In this document: positions 1 through 12,869 of the stretch, in pieces
Layout: the number at the start of each line of letters is the position of its first letter
How positions within the stretch are numbered: the stretch's first letter is position 1
Assembly: GCF_014647115.1 (NCBI RefSeq)
Contig: NZ_BMOO01000003.1
Coordinates: 62,001-126,000, forward strand
Direction of reading: 5' to 3'
DNA: 64,000 bases
Origin: Halarchaeum rubridurum
GTDB taxonomy: Archaea; Halobacteriota; Halobacteria; Halobacteriales; Halobacteriaceae
Notes under the pieces: model-generated
Database searches by the model: none
What the model saw: only the letters and a program-made list of their open reading frames with translations
Told to the model about the DNA's origin: nothing
Made by a program: the position numbers and the translations under genes

Positions 1-140
1 GGTGTGCCGTCGTCCATGTGGAGGACGTCTCCGGGTGCGACGGCGATTCCGGAGAAACGCCACGGCGGGTCAGTCTCGGTCGGGTCGTTCGTGTCCGCTT
101 GGAGATAGCGGACGGGGACTCGGAGTTCTGTAGTGGTCAT
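1..140 (-). CDS. Viral head-module protein, N-terminal 46 residues only
   Basis: A reading frame starts with ATG at 140 and runs off the left edge; the visible protein begins MTTTELRVPVRYLQ. It lies downstream of the portal and MuF-like genes, where head-tail viruses usually encode a prohead protease or scaffold. A short N-terminal tail followed by text like 'FSGIAVAPGDVLHMDDGT' suits a prohead-protease/DUF2213-type protein, but with 46 residues this is only a positional guess. It is separated by 82 bp from the MuF-like gene. Confidence 0.5.
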   Translation of the reverse strand, partial: MTTTELRVPVRYLQADTNDPTETDPPWRFSGIAVAPGDVLHMDDGT

Positions 141-222
141 CAGTAAGAGAGGGTCCGGGACCTCGAGCTCGGAGCATCACTCGACACTCGTCGACGCCGT
201 CATCGGGCCAGGGGTCGGAGGT

Positions 223-1056
223 CTATACGACAGGCGCGATACAGCACACGCAGTTTGGATGCGTGCGTCCCGGGATCAGCCCGTCCGCCTCAGAAACCGG
301 ATATGGGCCGTTGGTGGCGAGCGCCTCGCAAACCGGGCACGGGTCGGAGGTGAGGATGCGGACCTCGTCGACACCAGCGCCGTCGTATCGACGGGCGCTC
401 GCGGTATTATACGCGTTGGAGATCTCCGTTCGAGAGAGCGTTCGCGCTCGTGTGATGCCGATATCGTCGATGTCCTGAGTGAGACGGGCGGCGGCTTTCC
501 GTGGATTCCACCCTTCTGTAAGCGCGGTCGCAAGATCATCGCGAACCGTCTCTTGGATGGCGTCGGTGATGCCGGCGAGATTGTCGTACGCTCGCGTGTA
601 GATTTCTTGAACGGTGCGCTGGTGGACAGGCATGCGGAAGGTGGCACCGACACTCGCCTCGCCGGCGTGGATGCCAGCCTCCTCGAGTCGGCGCTCGGCG
701 CCGCGAAGCCCGCGCAGGTAGGCCGTCCGGAGATACGGGCCCGTATAGTGTCCGCCCTGTGCGATACGGCTGGGTGTGATCTGCTCTAGGACGTCCTCGT
801 CGAGAGCCTCTTGGAGCCACTCGGTGAACGCGTCGACAGCGTCGGCCCGCGTGTCGAACGTGAAGTGGTCGCGGGGCTGAGCGGCTGCGAGTTCGAGTGC
901 GTCGTTCTCGTAGCCGACCGTCGTCCGAAGCAGTCCCTTCAGGCGGCGGAAGCGTTTGGTCATCGCTGGCGCGAACTCGCGCTTGTGGAGCGTCGTCGTC
1001 CGCGTCAGATCTTGGGCCTCGGCGGTGAGTGTATGCCGTTGGTGGGTGTGGGCCAT
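223..1056 (-). CDS. Phage Mu protein F / SPP1 gp7-like minor head protein
   Basis: A 277-residue protein. The C-terminal third carries the MuF-type head-morphogenesis signature: the SRTEISNAYN segment near residue 205, a CPVCEAL motif near 238, and a closing HPNCVCCIAP motif. In characterised phages MuF proteins sit at the portal and take part in head assembly or DNA ejection. The start codon at 1056 shares a base with the stop of the upstream portal gene, so the two are translationally coupled. This portal-then-MuF order is standard for such viruses. Assignment to the family is firm; the exact virion role is inferred. Confidence 0.85.
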   Translation of the reverse strand: MAHTHQRHTLTAEAQDLTRTTTLHKREFAPAMTKRFRRLKGLLRTTVGYENDALELAAAQPRDHFTFDTRADAVDAFTEWLQEALDEDVLEQITPSRIAQGGHYTGPYLRTAYLRGLRGAERRLEEAGIHAGEASVGATFRMPVHQRTVQEIYTRAYDNLAGITDAIQETVRDDLATALTEGWNPRKAAARLTQDIDDIGITRARTLSRTEISNAYNTASARRYDGAGVDEVRILTSDPCPVCEALATNGPYPVSEADGLIPGRTHPNCVCCIAPVV

Positions 1057-2480
1057 CAGTCATCGGCCTCCGCCTCCGGGAACGCACTCCCGTAGTAGTC
1101 TTGGACGTTCTCGTCGGCCTCGTCGATGGGTGGGACGTCCGCGGTTGACTCAGCTCCAAGGTCCGGGAACTCGCCGGTTTCGATGAACTCAACGACATCT
1201 GCAGTCGTCATGCCGGCGAGGAGTGCCTGCACCTGCTGGAGAACCTCCGCACGAGTGGCTTGGACATCGGCTTCATCCGACTCGGACTGCTCGGCAAGCG
1301 GCGGCCACGCAACGTCATAGCCGCCACCGTTGGGCTGGGAGACTGCACCGTACTCTGTGAGTCGATCGATGAGGTCGCGGACGATGATCGGCGTGGTGGT
1401 CTGTTCGCGACGCTCGGCGATCGACCCGTACCATTCCTTCCGGTCTTCAGTTGTGGCGCGCTCCCCTGTCTCGTTGCCTTTCAGCATTGATTGGGGCATG
1501 CCGGTGTAGGCGCTGATCGCTTCGATCTCGGGATTGATGATCGGCGTTGGGTCGATATCGTTCCCACCGATCTGCTCGACGTCGGCGCCCTCCAACTGCA
1601 TCGTCTTCGAGAAGCCGTGCATGAACTCTTGGAGCTCTTGCTCCATTCGGTCGCCGCCGTCTTCGAGCTGGTAGCCGGAGTCGACGTTGACCGCGAGCCC
1701 GTAGTCGGCGCCGCGATAGGCCATTTCGGCGGCGGCACCGAGCGTCTTCTCGATGTCGAAGAGTGCGTTATAGACGGGCTCCATCCGGGGGGTGCCGCGG
1801 ATGTCGTCGTCGAGGAGGTTCTCGGCGATATGGATGACGCGCGAGTGATGCACCCATGCGGTCGTCGAGGTCTCCGGTGTGGCGTCGTCTTCGTCGCCAA
1901 GGTCAAGCCGGTAGTATTCGGGATACCCCCAGCGGTCGCTCTGGGGGTCGTCGTCGAGGCGGAGGTCCTCAACGGAGAGCTGGCTGAACGGGCGAAGCCA
2001 GCGGACGTCCGCAGGCCCGTCGATCTCTCCGCCATCGACGGGGGCGGCGAGATCACGGTTGTCGGCGAACCCGATGACGAGCACGCCATACTCGCCGATC
2101 CCGGCGAGTTTGTCGGCGCGCCTCGCGTAGTGCCAGAGGCGCTCGTCGTCCTCGAGCGTCGCGAGGTCGTCCTCGAAGGCGGTCGTCTCACCAGCTCCCA
2201 TTTCTACGCTGTCAGTGATGGTTGGCGGATCGCGCCACGTCGTCGTTGCGGGGATGTCGACGACGGCGCGCGCGTAGGGGTGGCGGAGGTACATCGCGTA
2301 GAAGTCCTCCACTCCGGGCTGCTCGTCCCAGCCGAACGCCTCGTAGAGGTCGCGGTCGCCGTCGTACTGTTTCCCGAGGTTCGCCGCGAGCATCGTCCGC
2401 ATCTGGATGCCCGCGAGCTCGTCCGCGGTCAGCTCGTACGTCTCGGCATCGTCGCTGTCAGTAGTAGTTGTGTCAGTCAT
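1056..2480 (-). CDS. Portal protein, DUF1073 family
   Basis: A 474-residue protein of typical portal length. Recognisable DUF1073 features include a central region on symmetry-related assembly (HHSRVIHIAENLL) and the segment MLKGNETGERATTEDRKEWY near residue 340, matching the family's conserved 'ml.G...G..a..ed...wy' block before the long C-terminal helix. Portals form the dodecameric ring through which DNA is packaged. The C-terminal 80 residues are acidic and low in conservation. The gene lies directly between TerL and the MuF-like protein, overlapping both by single bases. Some databases list DUF1073 proteins under an anti-CBASS (Acb1-like) name; the gene position and length support portal here. 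Confidence 0.85.
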   Translation of the reverse strand: MTDTTTTDSDDAETYELTADELAGIQMRTMLAANLGKQYDGDRDLYEAFGWDEQPGVEDFYAMYLRHPYARAVVDIPATTTWRDPPTITDSVEMGAGETTAFEDDLATLEDDERLWHYARRADKLAGIGEYGVLVIGFADNRDLAAPVDGGEIDGPADVRWLRPFSQLSVEDLRLDDDPQSDRWGYPEYYRLDLGDEDDATPETSTTAWVHHSRVIHIAENLLDDDIRGTPRMEPVYNALFDIEKTLGAAAEMAYRGADYGLAVNVDSGYQLEDGGDRMEQELQEFMHGFSKTMQLEGADVEQIGGNDIDPTPIINPEIEAISAYTGMPQSMLKGNETGERATTEDRKEWYGSIAERREQTTTPIIVRDLIDRLTEYGAVSQPNGGGYDVAWPPLAEQSESDEADVQATRAEVLQQVQALLAGMTTADVVEFIETGEFPDLGAESTADVPPIDEADENVQDYYGSAFPEAEADD

Positions 2481-4060
2481 CAGTTAGACCCCCACACGCC
2501 GGTGCCGGACGTGCCACCGCCGGCGCGTTTGCCTTCGGCCGCGAATGCCGCCATGATCGCCGCGTCGAGATAGTCCGGTGATCGGCTCCCGTCGAGCTGA
2601 TCCTTGATCGCTTGCTTCGACGTTGCGACCAAGACTTCAGCGCCGTCGTCGCCGTGGCTTGCGTAGAACTTCTCCTCGTACTCGACGACACGCGCCGCGA
2701 CGAGCGCTTGCTCGTAGAGGTCGCGATCTTGGATGCAGCCGCCTTCTTTCAGCCAGCGGCCGAAGACTGCGAGCGCCTCCGTCCAGCAGTCCTTATACTC
2801 GACGTCGTCGTCGGCCGTTTGGCCGGCGTTGAACCGGTGGAAGTCCGGGTAGGCTTGGCAGAGCCGATCGGCGATGCCAGAGCCCTCACCGACGGCGTCA
2901 AGTGCCCCTGGATGCGCTGGGTAATCGTCAAGGCCGCCGAACTCGCCATGGCCGTGGCGAATGCGGGACTCCTGCTGGGTGTGGTTCGTGCCAGATTCGG
3001 CGTAGTGGACGACGCAGCGATCCGCGTGGATGCTCGCGACGACCGTCTCGTCGCCAGCGCGCGCGAAGTCGATCCCGGTCCCATAGGGCGTGACGCGCGT
3101 CGACGATGGGGCGCGCTCCCAGGCGGCCTTGACGTCGTCGACCGTCCAGGGGCGGTTCGCGCTCGCGCCGGCTGGCGGGATGACGCCAGCGCGGCGCCGA
3201 TACCAGCGTTGGTCGAGGTTGTCGCGGAACTCGGGCGAGGTGGGGTCGGAGACCGTGCGGGCTTCCTCGACGCCCGGCCAGTCCTCTTCGTTGAACTCGC
3301 GCCAGTCCTCCTTGATCTTCCAGAGGGTGGCGAGCCCGTCGATCTGGGGGCCCTCGGCCTCGCCGAGTTCGACTTGGACGTTGTGGGAGGCGAAACTTGA
3401 GAAGGAGACGTCGTTCCAGGTCGGCTTGTCGAGGAGGTCGGCGACGATGTTCGTCTCGTCGACCGGTGGGTTCGCGATGGCGATCATCCGGTCGCGTTCG
3501 TCAGTGACGAGGGAGTCCATCGCGTCGACGGTCTCGGCGTCGACGTCGTCCTTGTCGGCCTCCTCGATGATCGAGAGGTGGTAGGCGGAGTGGACGCCCT
3601 CGAGCTCGCCGGCGTCCTGGGGGCTGGTGGCCTCGAACCAGTGCTCGGGATCGTCGGGGAAGTCGATCCGCTCGGGACGATGCTTGAACTCGCCGGGGAG
3701 GCCGGCGCCGTCGAGCGCGGAGTCGTGGAGTGCCTCGACCGGCTTGCAGAACGTCCGCTTCATCTTCTTCTCCGTCCCCGAAGTTGCGAGGACCGTTGCC
3801 GGGTAGAGGACGTACAGCCACGCGTTGGCGATCGCGGCGAGGATGTAGGACTTCCCGAGGCCGTTCGCAGTGACGACGAGCGTCTTCTGGTTCGAGGCGA
3901 CCGACCGGCAGATCTCGCGTTGCGCGTCGGAGACGCGGAGCCCGAGGACGTCCTCAATACAGTCCTCGAGCCACGTTTCGTCGCCGGCGCGCGCGCGTTC
4001 GGCGTAGTGGCTTGGCCGCTTCGGTCGCGCTGTCGACGATGCGGAGGTCGTGCTACTCAT
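2480..4060 (-). CDS. Terminase large subunit (packaging ATPase-nuclease)
   Basis: A 526-residue TerL. The N-terminal ATPase shows a Walker A variant TANGLGKSY (residues 64-72) and a Walker B LSIIEEAD (162-169). The C-terminal RNase H-like nuclease shows the first acidic residue in GIDFARAGDE (Asp331) and a late SPDYLDA block (495-500) that can supply the last metal ligand. It cuts concatemeric viral DNA and drives it into the prohead. It overlaps the TerS-like gene by 8 bp and the portal gene by 1 bp. The only Walker oddity is Asn-Gly-Leu in place of the usual Gly/Ala-rich loop, which is common in terminases. Confidence 0.93.
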   Translation of the reverse strand: MSSTTSASSTARPKRPSHYAERARAGDETWLEDCIEDVLGLRVSDAQREICRSVASNQKTLVVTANGLGKSYILAAIANAWLYVLYPATVLATSGTEKKMKRTFCKPVEALHDSALDGAGLPGEFKHRPERIDFPDDPEHWFEATSPQDAGELEGVHSAYHLSIIEEADKDDVDAETVDAMDSLVTDERDRMIAIANPPVDETNIVADLLDKPTWNDVSFSSFASHNVQVELGEAEGPQIDGLATLWKIKEDWREFNEEDWPGVEEARTVSDPTSPEFRDNLDQRWYRRRAGVIPPAGASANRPWTVDDVKAAWERAPSSTRVTPYGTGIDFARAGDETVVASIHADRCVVHYAESGTNHTQQESRIRHGHGEFGGLDDYPAHPGALDAVGEGSGIADRLCQAYPDFHRFNAGQTADDDVEYKDCWTEALAVFGRWLKEGGCIQDRDLYEQALVAARVVEYEEKFYASHGDDGAEVLVATSKQAIKDQLDGSRSPDYLDAAIMAAFAAEGKRAGGGTSGTGVWGSN

Positions 4061-4601
4061 CGTGAGCCTCGCGGAGGTCCTGCATCAGGAGGTCGTCGAC
4101 GCCGTCGACTTCGAGATGGTCCGTCGCGTCGGCGATGTTGAACTCGGAGAGGAGCTGGCGGGCCTCGCGGAGGAAGCGGTGATCTCCCGAGCGCTTGTAC
4201 TTGATCAGCGCCTCGGCAGCGAGTTCACGGACGGCGTCCTGCGCTCGATCCTGGTCGCCGAAGGCCTCGACGAGGCCGCCGAATGCCTCGCGTTCACGAT
4301 CAGAGAGATCGGACTGGAGGTGCTCGGAGAACGCTCCCGTCTGGTAGTTGCCGTTCGCGCGGCCTTTGGGGGCGTTCCCGCCGTGATGCTTGCACGCGAC
4401 GCCGGGCTCGCCCGTCCGCTTCGGGTCCGTGGTGCCGTGACCGGCGGTGAGCATGCAGAAGTCGACATCGTCGCGCTCACGACCATGCTCGGAGGGAGTT
4501 GTCGACTCACTCTTCGGCCGGCCGCAGATATAGCGGTCCGCGTCGTCCGGGTGGACGGGGTTTCCGTCGGCGTCGGTCGGCGCGTCTGGATGAATCTTCA
4601 T
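4053..4601 (-). CDS. Probable terminase small subunit-like DNA-binding protein
   Basis: A 182-residue protein upstream of and overlapping terL. It has a possible zinc site made of Cys26, Cys49, His55 and Cys70-His72/73 in the N-terminal 75 residues, a short linker PKGRANGNYQTGAF, and a helical C-terminal half that could oligomerise. In head-tail viruses the gene before terL normally encodes TerS, which recognises the packaging site. I infer TerS from position and from a 'CKHHGG..PKG..NG' pattern seen in other haloviral terminase clusters. No direct structural motif proves it. Confidence 0.6.
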   Translation of the reverse strand: MKIHPDAPTDADGNPVHPDDADRYICGRPKSESTTPSEHGRERDDVDFCMLTAGHGTTDPKRTGEPGVACKHHGGNAPKGRANGNYQTGAFSEHLQSDLSDREREAFGGLVEAFGDQDRAQDAVRELAAEALIKYKRSGDHRFLREARQLLSEFNIADATDHLEVDGVDDLLMQDLREAHDE

Positions 4602-4610
4602 CAGTTCGAG

Positions 4611-4907
4611 TCAGGGGCCGGGGCCGAGGTTCCGCGGCCGTGGCGGGCCGAGGTAGCCCGGTGAGGGTGGGGTGAGGTGGTCGTCGTCGACTTCGCGGTT
4701 ATGCTCGCCGCCGATATGGCAGCGCTTGCAGAGCGCGACGAGGTTCTCTGGGCTGTTGTTGTGGGGGTTCCCGTCGCGATGATGGACGTCGACGCGATCA
4801 ACCTCGCCGTAGGAGCGCCCGCAGCGTGGGCATCGCCAGCTCCGCCGGGAGCGCCCCTGCCAGTACTGTCGGCGTGCTTGGTCGCGGGCGTCTTGGTCGT
4901 CAGTCAT
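4611..4907 (-). CDS. HNH endonuclease
   Basis: A 98-residue HNH nuclease. The zinc ligands are Cys26/Cys29 and Cys60/Cys63; the active-site core is VDVHHRDGNPHNNSPENL (His42/His43, Asn50-51) followed by His64. Small HNH proteins next to terminases are known in phage HK97-type systems to help DNA cleavage during packaging, and its position immediately upstream of the TerS-like gene suggests that role here. The C-terminal 25 residues are Pro/Gly-rich. It overlaps the next upstream gene by 8 bp. Confidence 0.9.
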   Translation of the reverse strand: MTDDQDARDQARRQYWQGRSRRSWRCPRCGRSYGEVDRVDVHHRDGNPHNNSPENLVALCKRCHIGGEHNREVDDDHLTPPSPGYLGPPRPRNLGPGP

Positions 4908-5091
4908 CGTCGAGGAGGAACCCGGCTGTGCAGTCGGCGCAGAACGTGATCGTGTCCTGGAGCTCGTAGCCCGCTTCTTTCAGCTTGTCGCCGAGTGGAT
5001 GGGAGAGGTATTCGTCCTCGTGGAACTGTCCCATGAGGAACGCGTCGTCAACGCGCTCCCCGCACTCTTCACACTGTGCTTGGTACGTCAT
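4900..5091 (-). CDS. Small viral zinc-ribbon protein (63 aa)
   Basis: The ATG at 5091 gives a 63-residue protein starting MTYQAQCEECGE. Two CxxC pairs (CEEC near residue 7 and CADC near residue 53) make a four-cysteine zinc ribbon around a short helical centre. The gene overlaps the 36-residue gene upstream by 4 bp and the HNH gene downstream by 8 bp, so it is part of the packaging operon. Function unknown; a nucleic-acid or protein-binding adaptor is possible. Confidence 0.75.
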   Translation of the reverse strand: MTYQAQCEECGERVDDAFLMGQFHEDEYLSHPLGDKLKEAGYELQDTITFCADCTAGFLLDDD

Positions 5092-5198
5092 CCGTCCGCT
5101 TCCTCCGGATTCTCGGCGACGTCGAGAGCGCGGGGGAGACGTCCGCCGAAGTAGCACTGTGATGGCGTCGTGTTCGTGAACGGGCTGTCGTCACTCAT
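5088..5198 (-). CDS. Very small viral ORF (36 aa), unknown
   Basis: A 36-residue frame beginning MSDDSPFTNT. Support is positional: it starts 8 bp inside the end of the SNase-like gene and ends with an ATGA overlap onto the zinc-ribbon gene, exactly bridging what would otherwise be a gap in a fully overlapped operon. No motif recognised. Confidence 0.5.
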   Translation of the reverse strand: MSDDSPFTNTTPSQCYFGGRLPRALDVAENPEEADG

Positions 5199-5589
5199 CG
5201 GCTTGGATGTCGGTGAACTCTCCGCGGAGGGCGTCGGAGAGGCGTTGGCCGTCGGCCCGCCGAACAAGATCGACGAGCTCGCGGCCGAATGCCCCTTCGC
5301 CAGACTCGACGTCCGCGGCGTAGGTGACGCGGAACGGCCAGTGTCGCGGCCCCCACATCTGCTGGCCCTGGTGGATCCACTCGCGCGTGAACGCTTCCTC
5401 CTGCTGTGCTCGGTCGCGGATGGCGGGGCCGTCGGCGTCGGTTTCGTGGGTGTCGATGCCGCGGAGGCGATGTGTCGATGGGCCGACGACGGTTCGGGGT
5501 TCGGGCATTCGGTAGCCGACCCAGGTGTCGCCGTCGACGATCCGGACGACGTCGGCGAGCGCATCAAGGCCGTGATCAGGTGTGGTCAT
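5191..5589 (-). CDS. SNase-like (thermonuclease-fold) protein
   Basis: A 132-residue protein starting at the ATG at 5589. Near the N-terminus it has VVRIVDGDTW (Asp19, Asp21), then RLRGIDTHET (Arg43, Asp46, Glu49), the hallmark spacing of staphylococcal nuclease-like OB folds, whose catalytic Asp21, Asp40 and Glu43 sit in the same motifs. A clear equivalent of the third catalytic Arg is not obvious. A nuclease in the late operon could process host or viral DNA. It lies between a membrane protein gene and small packaging genes with minimal spacing. Confidence 0.65.
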   Translation of the reverse strand: MTTPDHGLDALADVVRIVDGDTWVGYRMPEPRTVVGPSTHRLRGIDTHETDADGPAIRDRAQQEEAFTREWIHQGQQMWGPRHWPFRVTYAADVESGEGAFGRELVDLVRRADGQRLSDALRGEFTDIQADE

Positions 5590-5591
5590 GG

Positions 5592-5960
5592 TCAGAGGAG
5601 CGTGCGGACGAGCGCGAGGAGTGTGGCGAGGACTGCGCCGGCGACGACGCCCCCGAGGGCGTAGTGCCACTCTTGCGTGACGTCGGCGAGGACGCGGCGT
5701 CGCGCGCCGCCGTTGACCGTTCGGGCGCGGCCGTAGACGGCGGCCGCGTAGATGATCGAGAGCAGTTGCGTCTGCCCGGTCGCGACGAAGAACCAGCCGG
5801 CCGCAAGGCCGAGCCCGAGCGCGTGTGATTCTGCGTGATAGCTGAGGAAGCCGTCGCGGGCGGAGTCTGTCTCGCTGGCTGCGCCGGCGGCCTTGATCCA
5901 CGCGACGACGCGATCAAGGACGCTCGGGGAGACGTCGGAGCTGGTCTGTTCGTTACTCAT
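5592..5960 (-). CDS. Viral membrane protein, unknown (122 aa)
   Basis: A 122-residue protein with a soluble N-terminal 45 residues and two or three hydrophobic segments (about residues 49-72 and 96-120, separated by a basic VYGRARTVNGGARRR loop). It overlaps the next upstream membrane gene by 8 bp and is 2 bp from the SNase-like gene. Adjacent pairs of small membrane proteins in viral late regions can be holin-like, but archaeal lysis is poorly known, so I assign no function. Confidence 0.65.
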   Translation of the reverse strand: MSNEQTSSDVSPSVLDRVVAWIKAAGAASETDSARDGFLSYHAESHALGLGLAAGWFFVATGQTQLLSIIYAAAVYGRARTVNGGARRRVLADVTQEWHYALGGVVAGAVLATLLALVRTLL

Positions 5961-6384
5961 CGGTGGCGTCCTCCGTGTCGTCGCCGGAGAGGTCTTGGAG
6001 TTCGAGCCAGACGGCGGCGAGTTCGCTCACCTCAACGCCGTTGAGGACGAGTAGAACGAAGAACGCGATCCAGGCGGTGAGGCCGGGGGCAGCGCCGTTC
6101 TGGATGGCGTATGTTGCGAGTGCGACGGTTGCGACAGACAGGGCGCCGGCCTTGAGGAGCTTGTACGTTTTAAGCGACATGTCGAAGTGGGCTTTGAGGA
6201 GCCGGGCAAGCCGGAGGTTATGCTCGCGGACATCGGCCGGCCAGGTATGGTGGGTGGACATGGTCAGGATGCATCGATCGGTCAGGAGTCGGAAGAGCTC
6301 ACCACGCGACTCGAACGCGTGCGTCCGCCTGGCGGAGTGAGCTGGCTGGTAGGAGGAGGAGGGCGCGACGTCGGCCACGGTCAT
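5953..6384 (-). CDS. Viral membrane protein, unknown (143 aa from ATG 6384)
   Basis: The conserved-looking core begins at an internal ATG (6261, MSTHHTWPADV) and has two hydrophobic segments (core residues about 37-55 and 60-82) and an acidic tail. I prefer the upstream ATG at 6384: 34 of the 41 codons between the two starts end in G or C, a coding-like bias well above local composition, and that ATG overlaps the stop of a short frame by ATGA. If the shorter start is right the protein has 102 residues. No family recognised; it pairs with the membrane protein downstream. Confidence 0.6.
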   Translation of the reverse strand: MTVADVAPSSSYQPAHSARRTHAFESRGELFRLLTDRCILTMSTHHTWPADVREHNLRLARLLKAHFDMSLKTYKLLKAGALSVATVALATYAIQNGAAPGLTAWIAFFVLLVLNGVEVSELAAVWLELQDLSGDDTEDATDE

Positions 6385-6509
6385 CCCCACGTTGCCCGCG
6401 GGGGTAGACGGTGGCTGCCGACGGCGCGCAACTGAGCGAGACGCGTGCGGCCTCGGCTGAGGATGTTACCTGGGCGATTCGCCGGTGATCCCTCGCCACG
6501 TTGGGTCAT
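6381..6509 (-). CDS. Possible 42-aa ORF filling an operon gap
   Basis: A short Arg-rich frame, MTQRGEGSPANRP to RATWG, begins 13 bp after the gene upstream and ends with ATGA overlapping the next start. Its third-position GC (about two thirds) is no higher than background, so coding status is doubtful. If it is not a gene, 6385-6522 is simply an untranslated gap. Confidence 0.25.
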   Translation of the reverse strand: MTQRGEGSPANRPGNILSRGRTRLAQLRAVGSHRLPPRATWG

Positions 6510-6522
6510 CGGGACACCCGGG

Positions 6523-6699
6523 TTACGCCGGCGCGACGACGTCGCCTTCGCGAACGCGATAGACACCGCGGTCGGGGACGTCGACGCGGAGGATGCGCTC
6601 GGGCGGCCGCCCGTACTCGGCGTCGAGCTCGTCGTCGACGACGTCACCCTCGAGGACGACGTCGAAAATCTCGAAGGCGACGCGATCCGGCGTGGTCAT
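6523..6699 (-). CDS. Small viral protein, unknown (58 aa)
   Basis: Starts at the ATG at 6699, which overlaps the stop of the zinc protein gene by ATGA. The 58 residues (MTTPDRVAFEIFDVV to VREGDVVAPA) are acidic and predicted beta-rich, compatible with a small adaptor. The opening MTTPD is shared with the SNase-like gene product. No family recognised. Confidence 0.55.
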   Translation of the reverse strand: MTTPDRVAFEIFDVVLEGDVVDDELDAEYGRPPERILRVDVPDRGVYRVREGDVVAPA

Positions 6700-7385
6700 C
6701 GCCGCGGATCCTCCTGGAGGGCGGCACCGATCGCGCGCCGCCACGACACCTCGCCGTCGACGCGGACGTTCCGCATCAACGCGGCCCCATCTGGTGAGCG
6801 TGGGGCTTTGTCCTCGTCGCGGAGGAACTCGAGGAGGGCGATGAGGTTGTAGGCGCGCGCAACGGTGTCCTCCCCATCGAACTCGGGCTCGTGATGCGAG
6901 TGATCGGTGTTGCCACACTGGCAGATCGGCGCCCAGGTTGCACGATCGCTTGCGTCCGGACTGGGGAGGGAGCGGAGGCCGTGATCGGCCTGATCGGTGA
7001 GATACTGAACACCGATGACGGCGTCGACGCTCGTAACGCGGTGGTGGTCGCAGTCGGTAGCGTCGAGCACCATCTGCCCACCCTCACCGGCGACGAACTC
7101 GCCGCCTTGGTCAAGCGCGGACTCAAGCGCGGATGCATGGCGTTCGCGCCAGTCGTCGTCCGGAGAGACAGTCTCCTTGATCCGCGCGAAGCACGTCGCG
7201 CAGAACCGGTGGTCGTGCACGATCGTCTTGAGGACGCCACCCTGGTCGCGCCACGCGCAGTCCCGACTGCAGTAGGAGCCCGCGACGGCCCCCCGGTGGA
7301 CGTCGAACTCGACGTCGCAGTCGTCGCGAGCGCACTCGTCAGTCTGGACGTCCGACTCTGAAAGTGGTGATTTGGCGAGAGACAT
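6696..7385 (-). CDS. Viral cysteine/histidine-rich protein (229 aa), unknown
   Basis: The N-terminal 70 residues carry several zinc-type pairs: C18-x4-C23, C39-x3-C43, and a late CATC. Further along a CQCGNTDHSHH cluster near residue 150 could form a second metal site. The protein looks like a haloviral multi-zinc protein of unknown role. It is the first gene of the leftward operon: upstream lies a 124-bp gap (7386-7509) containing CAATAA on the minus strand, a candidate weak promoter box. Confidence 0.65.
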   Translation of the reverse strand: MSLAKSPLSESDVQTDECARDDCDVEFDVHRGAVAGSYCSRDCAWRDQGGVLKTIVHDHRFCATCFARIKETVSPDDDWRERHASALESALDQGGEFVAGEGGQMVLDATDCDHHRVTSVDAVIGVQYLTDQADHGLRSLPSPDASDRATWAPICQCGNTDHSHHEPEFDGEDTVARAYNLIALLEFLRDEDKAPRSPDGAALMRNVRVDGEVSWRRAIGAALQEDPRR

Positions 7386-7509
7386 AGCTGGGAACCACCC
7401 ACGCTCTCAACGCGGGGGCATAGGAACACGCCCACAGAGGGGGCGCTCTGGTTATTGACAGATGCCGCTGGAGGGTGATGAACGAAGAGGGTCGCGTCGT
7501 CGAATGTCG

Positions 7510-7737
7510 CTACTCCACGACGTCGTAGAGCCGCATCCGGCCATCGCGAGGATTCGGACGGGCCTCAACGACGTCGACGTCACGCAGCCGGCGGAGCGCG
7601 TCGCGGATCGTCCGCCGCGGGAGCATCGTCGCCTCCGCCAGCTCACGTTGTGTTGCCGGCGCGGCGTCCTCGAGCGTCAGGTAGACGAGTTTCGACGCCG
7701 GGGGGAGATCTTCCACGGGGTTCTGTTGTGTGCTCAT
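7510..7737 (-). CDS. Winged-helix transcriptional regulator (75 aa)
   Basis: From the ATG at 7737 the protein has 75 residues; a GTG at 7779 would add 14. The helix-turn-helix is plain: ASKLVYLTLEDAAPATQRELAEATMLPRRTIRDALRRLRDVDVV, followed by a wing ARPNPRDGRMRLYDVV. This is the small MarR/TrmB-like haloarchaeal HTH type. Its location between the replication and late genes, and a perfect palindrome 34-57 bp before its ATG, suggest an autoregulated provirus switch protein. That role is inferred. Confidence 0.8.
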   Translation of the reverse strand: MSTQQNPVEDLPPASKLVYLTLEDAAPATQRELAEATMLPRRTIRDALRRLRDVDVVEARPNPRDGRMRLYDVVE

Positions 7738-7770
7738 AGACTGATTTGGGGATACCGCTGGCTGATCGAC

Positions 7771-7794
7771 CCATGACACACCGGGGTGTCATGG
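7771..7794. promoter_or_regulatory. Perfect 24-bp inverted repeat (operator or terminator)
   Basis: CCATGACAC and its exact complement GTGTCATGG flank a 6-nt spacer. The site lies between the end of the replication gene (7822) and the ATG of the winged-helix gene (7737). A dimeric wHTH binding site is the simplest reading; a terminator hairpin for the replication transcript is possible, but there is no T tract. Confidence 0.6.
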
Positions 7795-7821
7795 CCTGTT
7801 CGTGGACGCCGCGACCGAGGG

Positions 7822-10800
7822 TTAGGTCGGTGGTGCAGCCGCGTCGACGGTGTCGCTCACCGGGATCGTCGCTCGCGACGGGGGCGTCACCCCTGCATCA
7901 GGCTGGTCGCCACCTTCGAAAACGAAATTCCACGTATATTCGGTACTACTACCCGAGATTTCGTTTTCGCCGCTGCCGGTGGCGTCCTCGAGTTCGGGGA
8001 GGTCGACGTCGGCAAGGCCGGGATCGGCGTCGCCGAGCTCGTACTCGTAGGCACGGCCACGCGAGCCCTGGGTGTCGACGCGGAGGTAGCCGCCATCGCG
8101 GAGGTCTGCGAGGACGTTCTGGACCTGCCGCAGGCCGACGTCGTCGATCGCGGTCGCGATGTCGCGGGCGGTGAACGTTCGGCCACGGAGGTCGCGTGCG
8201 GCGTCGACGACGGCGAGGGTGCCACGGGAGTGTGCGGAGACGACGGCGCCTTGGTCGTCGACGGGGAGGTCGTCGCGGAGGGCGGACGTGTGGGCGAAGA
8301 CGACGCTCGCGTCGGCGTTTCGGCCGGCGCGAAGGATCGCCTGCATGGTGTGGTCTTCGCGCATGTGGTGGAGGTAGGCGTTCGCGATGTCGCTGCCGTA
8401 GTCGAGAGTGGGGCCGCGGGTGTCGCCACGGCCGGCGTCCTGTCCGGCGAGGAGCGCCCATTTCTCGGGGGCGGCGTCACCGTAGTGCTGGGAGCCGAGG
8501 ATCACGGCGACTTGGTGGTCGCCGAGTGCGTCGCTGCCCTTCATGTTCTCGTAGTTGACGGTGTCGCCGGCGTGATCGGCGAGGTCGTCCTCGAGGTGGT
8601 TGAGGACTTTGAGGGTGGAGATGACGGCAGGGCCCTTGTCGTCGAACGCCTCGGGGTGTGTGCCGGTGTACTCGTTGGCGACGGTGCGGATGAGCTCGAG
8701 GTCCTCCTGGAAGTTCTTCCCGTCTGGCTTCCCGTGGTAGGGGAGGGGGCGGTCGGTGGTCTGGACGACGGTGAGGTTCATCGTTTCGCGAAGGAAGCGT
8801 CGGCGTTCGGCGTCTGTGTCGTGGATGTCGCGGCGCTGGGTGTCGCGGCCGATGGCGAGCCGCCAGAGGTCGGTACGCCCGGTTGCGTCGAGGCCGAGGA
8901 CGGCGCACTTCGCGCCAGTGATGTCGGTGAACGCGGGTGTGTCGACGACGATGGCGCCGTGGTGGTTCTTGTCGACGGCGATGGTGGCGTCGTTCTTCGT
9001 GAGACGCTTGAAGTGTCCGCCGTCGCGTTCCTCGTCGAGGGAGAAGGTGTCGAGGGCGACGTCGGTGGCGTTGCCGTGCTCAGTGTCGGCGATGGCGCCG
9101 GCGAGGAGCGCCCACGCGGTGGGGTGAGCGTAGCCGTCGGTTGCGTGGATTGCGAGCGCGCGACAGCCGTCTCGTCCTCCATCGAGTGCAGTGAGGGCGG
9201 CCTCGAGGAGGGGTTTGGCGGCGCGTGTGCCGACGGCGTCGATGGCATTCCGGAGGAGGTGTTCGAGGTCGCCACTCGCGGGGAGGTCGTCGACGGCCGC
9301 GCTGGCCGCGGCGAGCGGGTCGCGATCGTCGAACCCGGCATGTCCCTCGGCGAGACTGCCGAGGATGTCTTCGAGTCGGTCGCGGAGCGCGTAGAGCGCG
9401 CCAGCACCCCGCCCGTTCGTGTAGCGGTGGTGGGCACGTCCTTCGACGTCGTCGAGGATGTCACGGACGCCGTCCTGGACGTCGTGGAGGACGTCGCCTC
9501 CGGGAGTCGCGTCGACGAGATCCTGAAGAAGGCCACGGAGCCGCTCGATGTCGACGTTCGTGTCGGCGTCGACGTCGGCGAGGAGCTGGCCGTCCAGGAG
9601 CGCGTGTGCTTCGGTGGTAGCGTCGGCGATCGACGCGAGTGCGGTGAACACCTCCTTGGCGTCTGCGGCGGGGGCGTAGTCGGCCCCTTCGCCGTTGAGC
9701 CAGGCGTTGATCCAGGTGTCGTCGGCGAGGTCGGCAGCGCCGAGGTCCTCGCGAGTCTGCACGCCACGGAGAGCGTCCGCGAGCCAGACGGCGTGATCCA
9801 TGAAGCGGTCGCCGTAGTCCGTCGCGAATGTCTCGCCGGGGAACTCGTCGACGACAACGGCACGTGGGCGTTCGACGCGTTCGTTCCCACGCCGCTCGAA
9901 GTAGGTTGTCGCGCTGTCGACGAACGCGTGGCCGGGCGAGCCGATCAGGACGTCCTTCGGGTTGTCCGGGTCGCGAGCGGCCTCCCATGCGGCTGTGTAC
10001 TCGCACTCGCCGATCTCGTGGCGGCAGGGGAGTTCCTCGCCGAAGAGAGCCTCCGCGTTCGTGTGGAGGTCCGCAGGTCGATGCCCGAGCGCACGCGCCA
10101 CTTGGACGGCGACACGCCACGCCAGGCTGTAGTCGCCTTCAGCGGTCGCGCACGTCGACCGGTCGAGGTCGATGTCTTCACTGTCGGCGTCGGTCTCCTC
10201 GGCGTCCTCGGCATCCTCGATGTATTCAGTGACGTGCTCGAGGAGTGCATCGCGGTCGCGGAGGAGGTCGCGGCCGTGTTCGCGAACGGCGCCGACGCCG
10301 GCCTCGATCGCGGCGTCGCCGAGTTGGTTCTCGGCGAGGATCGGGAGGTGCATACACGTCGGCTCGGCGTCCGGGTGTGTGTCGTCGTCGGCGTGGATTT
10401 CGTGGACGTAGGCCTCCATCTGGTCTTTCAGCTCGTTCCGGGAGGCGACGTAGAGGATGGGCTTCTCGTCGGCGACGACGGCCGCACTGTACGTTTTCCC
10501 ACCGCCGGGGACGACGGTGAGGAGTTGGGCGCGGTCGCGCACAGTGACGGCGTCGCGAACGAGCGCCTCCGTCTCGGCACGGGCATCGGCGAGCGATTCG
10601 GCGGGCGTGGCGCGGTGGTCGTCGTCGAGGAGGCGGACAGCGGGCGGGAGGACGGCGCGATGCTCGAGGATGGTTGCACGCCACTTCGGGAGCGGGGCGC
10701 CGTACTCCTCGCGGAGGAGGCGGTACGCTTGTTTGTAGGCCTCGCCACGCGGCCGCACAAATTCGTTCTCGACGAGGTCGTGCTCGAGGGCGACGAGTTG

Positions 10801-12705
10801 GAGGGCGTCGAACGTGCGGTTGCCTTCGGGCTGGCCGGGGCTATGCTTCGCGCACCAGAACCCGCGGCCGTAGCCGGCGATGATCCGTTCGCCGCTCTCG
10901 CTGTCTTCCCAAGTCGGGTCGAGTTTCGCGGTTGCCGTCCCGCTGGGGTCGTCGACAGTGACGGTGGACTCGCAGGTGTCGAGGATGTGTTCGGGCGTGA
11001 TGCGATCGACGGCGGCCATCGCGAGGTCTGCACGCTCCTCGAGCGTGGTGTTGTCGAGGTACTTCGGGAGGGGGGCGCCGTAGCGGTCGCGTGCGAGGTA
11101 GTACGCCTCGGTGTAGCGGCCATCCGCGGGGAACTGGTCGGGCGTCGTGATCCAGCCTTCCTGCAGGGCGACGGCGATCGCGACGTCGTCGACGTCGTCG
11201 CGTGCGAGCTCGGGAAGGGCGTCGGGGTCGGTGAGGTCCTCGGGTGTGACGGCGCTCGCGGCTGCGAGAGCGTTCGCGGGCTCCACCACGACGTCGAGGC
11301 CGAGGAGGTCGCGGGGGTCGTCTGCGTCGTCCTCGTCGTTTTCGGGCTGGTATTCGGGGATGGGGAATCCGAGGTCGCGGAGGTGGTCGACGGCTTCCCA
11401 CCACGTTCCGCCGTTAACGCGACTCGGGCAGTCACGATCGGAAACGAGCCCGGCGTCGATCGCCGCCATGCAGGCAGGACCGCCTTTCCCGCCGCGCGTT
11501 CCCGAGTCCTTCCAGACGTCAGCCGTGACAAAGTTCGCAGTTCCCTCGTATCCTGGGTTGGCCCATGTGGGGACGAACGCACGGTAGTCGGCGTGGCTCG
11601 GGTCGATCCACTCATCGACGATGGTCCGCTCGGCGACTTCTTGGGCGTTGAGGCGGTCGAGCGCGGCGTAGATGTCGCGCACGTCGTTGGCCGTCTCGTC
11701 GCTCGATGTCGCACCGGCGTCGTAGTCCTCAATGTCGAAGTCGCTGTAGTCGTCGGCGGACGCGTCGCGCGTGTTGAGTTGGTCGTTTGCCCGGAGGATC
11801 GCTTCGAGTGCGTCGTCGTCCCACTCGGTGGCGCTCTCCGGGGTGCCGGGGATGTGTTCGCCGGTGGCGACGCAAACGTGCTTGCCGTCGTAGATCTCGA
11901 TGGCGGGGAGCTCGTCGTTCGCCCCCCACGGTTCGTCGTCGATCTCCCACTTGGCCTCCTTCACGCCCTCGGGGAGTGCTCCGAGGTAGACTGCGTGCAC
12001 GCCGGCGCCGCTCACCGAGATGTCGCCGTACGTAACACCGAGGTGTTCGAGGAAGGTCTCGAAGACGGGGTGGATGCCCCCGGTCTCGGGGTCGCGGACG
12101 TCGTCGCCGTCGACGAAGGCGAGTGGGTCGTCGGCGCGCTGGATGAACGCTAGTCCGGCGAGGCGTGGGTCGCGGTCGGCCCACAGGAGGGCTTCGTCGT
12201 GGTCCGTGTAGTTCCCCTCGTACCCCCACTTGTACCGGGCGCTGTGCCCGCACTCTGCGCAGGTCGTTGGCTCCTCGTGGTGGTCGCACGAGACCGGGGC
12301 GTCGGCGTCAGCCCAGGGGGCGAACGGCTGTTTATCGCCGGCCTTGTGGCCCATCCACTGCCCGCGCTCGACGTGGTCGGTGGCCCATCGTCCGCTCTCA
12401 GGGGTCGCGAAATCAGCGTCTGCCCACGACCTGGCATCCGATTCGGTTGATGAACTCGATGATGCTATACAGACCTCGTCATCCCCCTCTGGCCCGTCTT
12501 CGCCGACGTCATCCTCGTCGGCGAAGCCAATGGTCCAGTCGTCGGTTTCGACGAGGACATCGTCGAGGGCGGCGTCGAGGACATCGCGCGCGTCGCCGTC
12601 GAAGAACTCGTCGCGCTCGCGGAGCGTCTCGAGGACCTCGCCGTACGTCTGGGGGTCGGCCTCGTCGAGGATGGTCTCCCACTGCGCGTCGGAGAGACCG
12701 CTCAT
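7822..12705 (-). CDS. Primase-polymerase / helicase fusion replication protein
   Basis: A 1627-residue protein from the ATG at 12705 (a GTG at 12714 would add three). Residues about 150-300 form an NrS-1/PrimPol-like primase domain: the acidic motif AFVDGDDVRDPETG, the SVSGAGVHAVYLG motif and IEIYDGKHVCVATGEHIPGT correspond to the three catalytic blocks of haloarchaeal primases. Residues about 725-1480 contain a helicase: Walker A VVPGGGKT (731-738) and a Walker B-like VVVDEF (950-955). Four cysteines between them (784, 852, 894, 901) recall XPD/DinG Fe-S helicases. A winged-helix unit lies near residues 1480-1540. A ~55-residue module ending YGAPLPK occurs twice (about 510-565 and 635-690). 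It probably initiates and unwinds provirus DNA. Confidence 0.8.
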   Translation of the reverse strand: MSGLSDAQWETILDEADPQTYGEVLETLRERDEFFDGDARDVLDAALDDVLVETDDWTIGFADEDDVGEDGPEGDDEVCIASSSSSTESDARSWADADFATPESGRWATDHVERGQWMGHKAGDKQPFAPWADADAPVSCDHHEEPTTCAECGHSARYKWGYEGNYTDHDEALLWADRDPRLAGLAFIQRADDPLAFVDGDDVRDPETGGIHPVFETFLEHLGVTYGDISVSGAGVHAVYLGALPEGVKEAKWEIDDEPWGANDELPAIEIYDGKHVCVATGEHIPGTPESATEWDDDALEAILRANDQLNTRDASADDYSDFDIEDYDAGATSSDETANDVRDIYAALDRLNAQEVAERTIVDEWIDPSHADYRAFVPTWANPGYEGTANFVTADVWKDSGTRGGKGGPACMAAIDAGLVSDRDCPSRVNGGTWWEAVDHLRDLGFPIPEYQPENDEDDADDPRDLLGLDVVVEPANALAAASAVTPEDLTDPDALPELARDDVDDVAIAVALQEGWITTPDQFPADGRYTEAYYLARDRYGAPLPKYLDNTTLEERADLAMAAVDRITPEHILDTCESTVTVDDPSGTATAKLDPTWEDSESGERIIAGYGRGFWCAKHSPGQPEGNRTFDALQLVALEHDLVENEFVRPRGEAYKQAYRLLREEYGAPLPKWRATILEHRAVLPPAVRLLDDDHRATPAESLADARAETEALVRDAVTVRDRAQLLTVVPGGGKTYSAAVVADEKPILYVASRNELKDQMEAYVHEIHADDDTHPDAEPTCMHLPILAENQLGDAAIEAGVGAVREHGRDLLRDRDALLEHVTEYIEDAEDAEETDADSEDIDLDRSTCATAEGDYSLAWRVAVQVARALGHRPADLHTNAEALFGEELPCRHEIGECEYTAAWEAARDPDNPKDVLIGSPGHAFVDSATTYFERRGNERVERPRAVVVDEFPGETFATDYGDRFMDHAVWLADALRGVQTREDLGAADLADDTWINAWLNGEGADYAPAADAKEVFTALASIADATTEAHALLDGQLLADVDADTNVDIERLRGLLQDLVDATPGGDVLHDVQDGVRDILDDVEGRAHHRYTNGRGAGALYALRDRLEDILGSLAEGHAGFDDRDPLAAASAAVDDLPASGDLEHLLRNAIDAVGTRAAKPLLEAALTALDGGRDGCRALAIHATDGYAHPTAWALLAGAIADTEHGNATDVALDTFSLDEERDGGHFKRLTKNDATIAVDKNHHGAIVVDTPAFTDITGAKCAVLGLDATGRTDLWRLAIGRDTQRRDIHDTDAERRRFLRETMNLTVVQTTDRPLPYHGKPDGKNFQEDLELIRTVANEYTGTHPEAFDDKGPAVISTLKVLNHLEDDLADHAGDTVNYENMKGSDALGDHQVAVILGSQHYGDAAPEKWALLAGQDAGRGDTRGPTLDYGSDIANAYLHHMREDHTMQAILRAGRNADASVVFAHTSALRDDLPVDDQGAVVSAHSRGTLAVVDAARDLRGRTFTARDIATAIDDVGLRQVQNVLADLRDGGYLRVDTQGSRGRAYEYELGDADPGLADVDLPELEDATGSGENEISGSSTEYTWNFVFEGGDQPDAGVTPPSRATIPVSDTVDAAAPPT

Positions 12706-12753
12706 GCCGAACACCCCGTTTTACCGAGAGAATCTGCTGGGGCGGAAGCGTCC

Positions 12754-12778
12754 AATCCAGCCGTTTCAGGCTTGGATT
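12754..12778. repeat. Imperfect inverted repeat beside the attachment site
   Basis: AATCCAGCC and GGCTTGGATT pair with a single bulged T around a GTTTCA loop, 18 bp from the tRNA-Thr 3' end. It could be an integrase arm site, an excisionase site or a terminator for the tRNA. The minus-strand leader of the replication gene runs through it. Confidence 0.4.
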
Positions 12779-12795
12779 CTAAACATTTGGTCGGA

Positions 12796-12869
12796 AGCCA
12801 AGGGAGGGATTTGAACCCCCGAATTCTCGATTACAAATCGAGTGCTTGAACCGCCCAAGCTCCCTTGGC
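12796..12869 (-). tRNA. tRNA-Thr (UGU)
   Basis: The minus strand reads GCCAAGG at the 5' end (12869) and CCTTGGC plus discriminator U at the 3' end (12796). The anticodon stem CTCGA/TCGAG encloses TTTGTAA, giving anticodon UGU. The T arm contains GGTTCAAATCC. Discriminator U is normal for archaeal threonine tRNAs. CCA is not encoded. It begins 5 bp after the GNAT gene, so it is probably cotranscribed with it, and its 3' end is the provirus junction. Confidence 0.95.

Follow-up and report, generated by a model that had tools for sequence, protein, structure and literature searches.

A likely replication protein of a haloarchaeal tailed provirus joins a PrimPol domain to a predicted XPD/DinG-type helicase

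Helicases of the XPD/DinG type are known for their roles in repair, transcription and CRISPR type IV systems. DinG-like subgroups with N-terminal additions are also known, and the word "primase" is absent from the main text of a 2025 review of bacterial DinG-like proteins. The primase-polymerase of phage NrS-1 is described as assembling into a ring and as having a helicase domain of its own (PMC7102993). In the PrimPol-PV1 supergroup, AEPs of mobile elements are fused to varied helicases, some of them remotely SF2-like; this SF2-like group was likened to the UL9 type, with XPD unmentioned and no Fe-S helicase included (Kazlauskas 2018). Among tailed haloviruses, HRTV-DL1 encodes ORF48 (OP630574-6), which its authors called a primase-helicase (PMC10544981). 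For a primase fused to a DinG or XPD helicase, we found no report in the open-licence papers searched, though such reports may exist elsewhere.

We analysed a gene in a 64,000-nucleotide stretch of Halarchaeum rubridurum DNA (all of which we call the window) whose product probably serves a tailed haloarchaeal provirus as its replication protein, combining in one chain an AEP PrimPol, an XPD/DinG-type SF2 motor and a DNA-binding winged helix. The open reading frame reported in an initial annotation is real, and can be read either from that annotation's ATG at 12705 (1627 amino acids) or from a GTG at 12714 (1630 codons). Residues are counted here from the GTG, so that each number equals the annotated position plus 3. 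The motifs named previously, GGGKT (737-741), VVVDEF (953-958) and VLIGSPG (at 922), are all present in the translation.

7822-12714, minus strand: whole gene, encoding the primase-polymerase, XPD/DinG-like helicase and winged helix (open frame, homologues)
11776-12429, minus strand: NrS-1-like AEP (PrimPol) catalytic domain, residues about 96-313 (matches to PDB 6a9w, 6k9a and 7rr3; PHROG primase families)
12100-12111, minus strand: AEP motif I, D202-x-D204 (35/35 homologues)
11995-12018, minus strand: AEP motif II, S233-x-SGxGxH240 (S233, S235, G238 and H240 in 35/35)
11890-11898, minus strand: AEP motif III, E273-x-Y275 (35/35 homologues)
11335-11769, minus strand: C-terminal part of the PrimPol region, residues 316-460
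10678-11022, minus strand: middle domain, residues 565-679, in which the C-terminal part of the PrimPol is repeated

The N-terminal domain had been likened to the NrS-1 enzyme, and homology searches agree. A phmmer search with the window protein against the PDB matched NrS-1 primase-polymerase structures (6a9w, E 5e-4; 7rr3, E 2e-4), and a profile built from 28 homologous domains retrieved the same structures with an E-value of 6e-13; no Pfam model matches the PrimPol domain of the window protein. The motif set of NrS-1-like AEPs (DxD, SxGxH, E/D-x-Y) is complete within this one domain, and both the AEP catalytic domain and its motifs are common to the window protein and the NrS-1 enzyme (6a9w, 6k9a). 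Since the predicted structure of the PrimPol and middle region (residues 88-700) is poor, with a pLDDT of 54.6, the PrimPol assignment is drawn from sequence. The middle domain was recognized as a repeat because positions 242-352 of the AEP profile match a second time at residues 565-679. Near this domain several relatives carry the cysteines of a CPxCG Zn-ribbon, which have been lost from the window protein.

The PrimPol domain is also like that of HRTV-DL1 ORF48, with 50.7% identity over 358 amino acids. The initial annotation had called a single-polypeptide arrangement unusual in described haloviruses, which ORF48 contradicts as far as a single-chain primase-helicase goes. However, the C-terminal half of ORF48 is a P4/SF3-like ATPase (GGGQNGKS; one record is annotated 'P4 family'), and the claim is partly right, as far as the kind of helicase in this described case goes. 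The motor of the window protein likewise differs from the NrS-1 type of helicase, being predicted to be an XPD/DinG-like SF2 motor.

10492-10512, minus strand: Walker A, VPGGGKT (G739 and K740 in 38/39 homologues)
9997-10152, minus strand: Fe-S-like domain between Walker A and the DE box (ligand conservation; XPD profile alignment)
9841-9858, minus strand: motif II, VVVDEF (D956 and E957 in 39/39)
9130-9813, minus strand: all-helical insert after motif II, residues about 968-1195, in the place of the Arch domain (secondary structure of the model, fold matches)
8320-8343, minus strand: motif VI, QAILRAGR, residues 1458-1465 (Q1458, R1462 and R1465 in 39/39)
8020-8217, minus strand: C-terminal winged helix-turn-helix, residues about 1500-1565 (PHROG regulator match; Foldseek matches to wHTH proteins)

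The helicase half is matched by no helicase model of Pfam (DEAD_2, PF06733, included) or of NCBIfam. Conservation and predicted fold nevertheless place in it the two RecA-like domains of an SF2 helicase, with its Walker A, DExx and motif VI. An AlphaFold2 model of residues 690-1600, built on an alignment of 13 sequences, has a pLDDT of 81.9 and a pTM of 0.81. When this model was compared with the PDB using VIA-align, ranks 1-19 were exclusively DinG, CasDinG, XPD and Rad3, and other SF2 helicases (WRN, RecQ type) started at rank 20 with a Z of 13.9. The best match was E. coli DinG (6fws; Z 18.0, 437 residues aligned, with an rmsd of 13.1 A that reflects differently placed domains), and human XPD (6nmi) aligned over 358 residues with a Z of 15.8 and an rmsd of 3.9 A; as rows within one Z unit tie, the comparison does not tell whether DinG or XPD is nearer in fold. 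Foldseek returned chain 0 of 7o4i at rank 1 (E 7e-6), followed by DdmD at rank 2 and XPD 2vl7 at rank 3; the 7o4i chain, listed under a yeast pre-initiation complex, we take to be Rad3.

Profile-profile alignment of the helicase half with haloarchaeal XPDs gave a probability of 91.6; in it, C855 is aligned to a cysteine of XPD (STC), C904 to the fourth and last Fe-S cysteine (LCGY), and H929 to the NYHHLL (NYHxLL) histidine. A second haloarchaeal DinG/XPD paralogue gave partial matches alone, at moderate probability. The order of domains, namely Walker A, cysteine domain, DE box, helical insert and motor 2, is that of XPD/DinG, and the helical insert, as judged from position and secondary structure, appears to sit at the Arch place in the model and is matched along with DinG/XPD. 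The window protein has in common with XPD/Rad3 and DinG (6fws, 2vl7, 7o4i) its predicted fold, its domain order with a helical insert that may correspond to the Arch, as well as the CxY, the H-containing strand before the DE box and the QxxxRxxR of motif VI. It differs from them in a DE box that reads DEFP rather than DEAH, in its fused primase and winged helix, and in having no Pfam match. Structure prediction gives the helicase half an XPD/DinG fold, and a likeness to XPD/DinG first noticed by eye is borne out by the fold search, the profile-profile alignment (C904, H929) and the domain order. The PrimPol and motor motifs, the conserved Cys/His positions and the order of domains can all be read directly from the aligned sequences.

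The candidate ligands in the Fe-S-like domain are as follows.

10150-10152, minus strand: C855
10063-10065, minus strand: H884
10024-10026, minus strand: C897
10003-10005, minus strand: C904

The initial annotation had pointed to four cysteines between the helicase boxes, numbered there 784, 852, 894 and 901, as a layout reminiscent of Fe-S helicases, and had asked for their conservation to be checked. All four are present in the window protein (787, 855, 897 and 904), which would favour a canonical four-Cys Fe-S site made of exactly these residues. Among 39 homologues, however, C787 is found in one, whereas C855, C897 and C904 occur in 39/39, and so does a histidine that had gone unmentioned, H884. 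As C787 is not conserved, the site comprises three cysteines and one histidine instead of four cysteines, and the four-cysteine set is ruled out by conservation; it would survive, at a probability we regard as negligible, only if the window protein differed from its relatives. The domain at the position of the XPD/DinG Fe-S domain has C-H-C-C instead of CCCC. Absence from homologues, which the annotation had named as refuting, counts against its first cysteine and for the other three. These four positions are among 25 invariant columns of 911, and in this alignment their conservation is beyond chance. Another cysteine, 17 residues before C855, occurs in several short forms (e.g. L053, L062, L064) and was considered as a ligand, but it is not invariant, being absent in L052 and L066, and was rejected.

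C855, H884, C897 and C904 would bind one metal centre, most likely a [4Fe-4S] cluster held by three Cys and one His. The main alternative is the same protein with a structural Zn2+ at the C-H-C-C site and no Fe-S cluster. Three Cys and one His are a common Zn set, and a review of DinG-like proteins notes that CCHC and similar variants exist, some of which may bind Zn (PMC11981726). The same review states that such one-residue variants may still bind Fe-S, and the site sits at the position of the XPD/DinG Fe-S domain according to both the profile alignment and the fold search. Also speaking against Zn, four Cys are retained in a sister group that shares this PrimPol and whose motor is related to the present one by profile-profile alignment (probability 100, E 1e-43): its members have Cys, Cys, His, Cys and Cys at the matching places in 8/8; a profile alignment of this four-Cys sister group directly with XPD was not significant. 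We thus regard Zn as rather unlikely, though a serious contender, and Fe-S as more likely, giving it about twice the weight. A metal-free, vestigial Fe-S domain could also be imagined, as in CasDinG, which shares the fold predicted for the window helicase and is among its best fold matches. In a decaying site one would not expect all four ligands to persist in each of 39/39 homologues, some of them as little as about 27-30% identical, and we consider a metal-free domain very improbable.

The primase module is variable: across 38 helicase rows it is an AEP, a DnaG-type TOPRIM, a third, unassigned type, or absent. DnaG-type TOPRIM primases, whose fold is unrelated to that of AEPs, occupy the primase slot not in the window protein but in L042-L047, L067, L069, L077 and L084, as indicated by DNAG_N matches above cut-off in L045 and L069, by matches to DnaG structures and by PHROG DNA primases. 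Between L046 (TOPRIM) and L086 (AEP), identity is 91% across 1185 C-terminal residues and 47% across the first 110, so the catalytic domain has been replaced between conserved flanks. The part at residues 316-460 is kept where the catalytic domain is swapped, in L042, L035, L087 and L073. On the helicase tree of 38 rows, 13 changes are required to explain the AEP label, and at least 10 of them follow from well-supported branches; the label changes no less often than shuffled labels do. The primase domain of this family is a replaceable cassette that has been exchanged repeatedly.

The third N-terminal domain (L035:742-1791, L087:3439-4512, L073:9567-10589(-)) has no PDB or Pfam match; its invariant DxDL (GDIDL), SxGG and KAPL (KAPLSxH) motifs look AEP-like by eye. 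In L049 and L056, PrimPol homologues are fused to a further, differently cysteine-rich ATPase, which aligns poorly with both helicase groups. The homologue at L082:3833-8730 lies in two frames, one with the AEP part and the other with the helicase part, probably owing to a frameshift.

The gene is the last in a contractile-tailed provirus of about 44.2 kb (G000:C3:30577-74817), delimited by a 22-bp repeat that corresponds to the 3' end of the tRNA-Thr. Together with this att repeat in a tRNA, integrases and genes for tail sheath, baseplate, head, portal and terminase identify a tailed provirus.

1-12817, minus strand: the portion of the provirus that falls within the window (encoding Mu-F-like head, portal, terminase, HNH and wHTH proteins)
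12796-12869, minus strand: tRNA-Thr, provirus attachment site (22-bp att core at 12796-12817, repeated at G000:C3:30577-30598)

The window gene starts 85 bp from the tRNA-Thr att site. The probable replication gene, and not an integrase, lies directly downstream of the att site on the strand of the tRNA (12714-12796), and at 15 other loci a homologous gene lies behind a tRNA, on the same strand and within 1 kb. Two tyrosine-recombinase-like integrase genes with PHROG integrase matches are found at the far end of the provirus (L004:8639-9853(+) and L004:10359-11054(-)). A single-sequence search found no close relatives of the window protein in viral contigs, and among the 295 genomes of the phylum that were searched, the helicase family is confined to the haloarchaeal order, with winged-helix matches only elsewhere.

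Instead of being the replicative enzyme, the protein might be carried by the provirus for repair, repriming or as an anti-plasmid helicase. Nearest to it in fold are repair helicases together with DdmD, which acts in plasmid defence, and some helicase relatives stand alone, lacking a primase (L070, L074). On the other hand, a primase is fused in nearly all relatives, where it is swapped yet hardly ever lost, no other replication gene is seen among the ORFs searched in the annotated part of the provirus, and a PADLOC search of the window protein for a defence role returned no match. We therefore consider a non-replicative role improbable.

If the protein is replicative, as we favour, the following sequence of events can be proposed. 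After excision, the winged helix or the PrimPol would bring the protein to the origin. The presence of a C-terminal winged helix, already proposed from sequence, is confirmed by the PHROG and Foldseek matches listed above; it would bind DNA, perhaps at the origin. The PrimPol would make the first primers and short DNA, and the motor, for which we infer 5'-3' polarity, would separate the strands by pulling one of them past the metal domain and Arch-like insert, which, by analogy with DinG/XPD, may form a strand pore. Extension would fall to a host or viral polymerase, or to the PrimPol itself.

More broadly, we tentatively propose, with slightly less than even confidence, a set of halovirus-specific replicative helicases that descend from XPD/DinG, have a 3-Cys/1-His Fe-S centre and carry cassette-swapped AEP or TOPRIM primases in the same polypeptide. 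It would, if true, be a new role for an XPD/DinG helicase to drive unwinding in a viral replication protein, and the C-H-C-C centre could show what the metal does in XPD/DinG motors. With AEP and TOPRIM primases exchanged next to helicases that are 91% identical, the family offers a clean natural experiment, which suggests that the helicase is independent of a particular primase fold and allows primase-helicase coupling to be tested with natural proteins.

Finally, most relatives have a conserved C-terminal tail with Y/W-T-W after the winged helix (residues about 1590-1600, 7915-7947), which reads EYTWNFVF in the window protein and YYTWNVRVF in L085, and which might serve as a peptide that docks a partner, for example a clamp or SSB.
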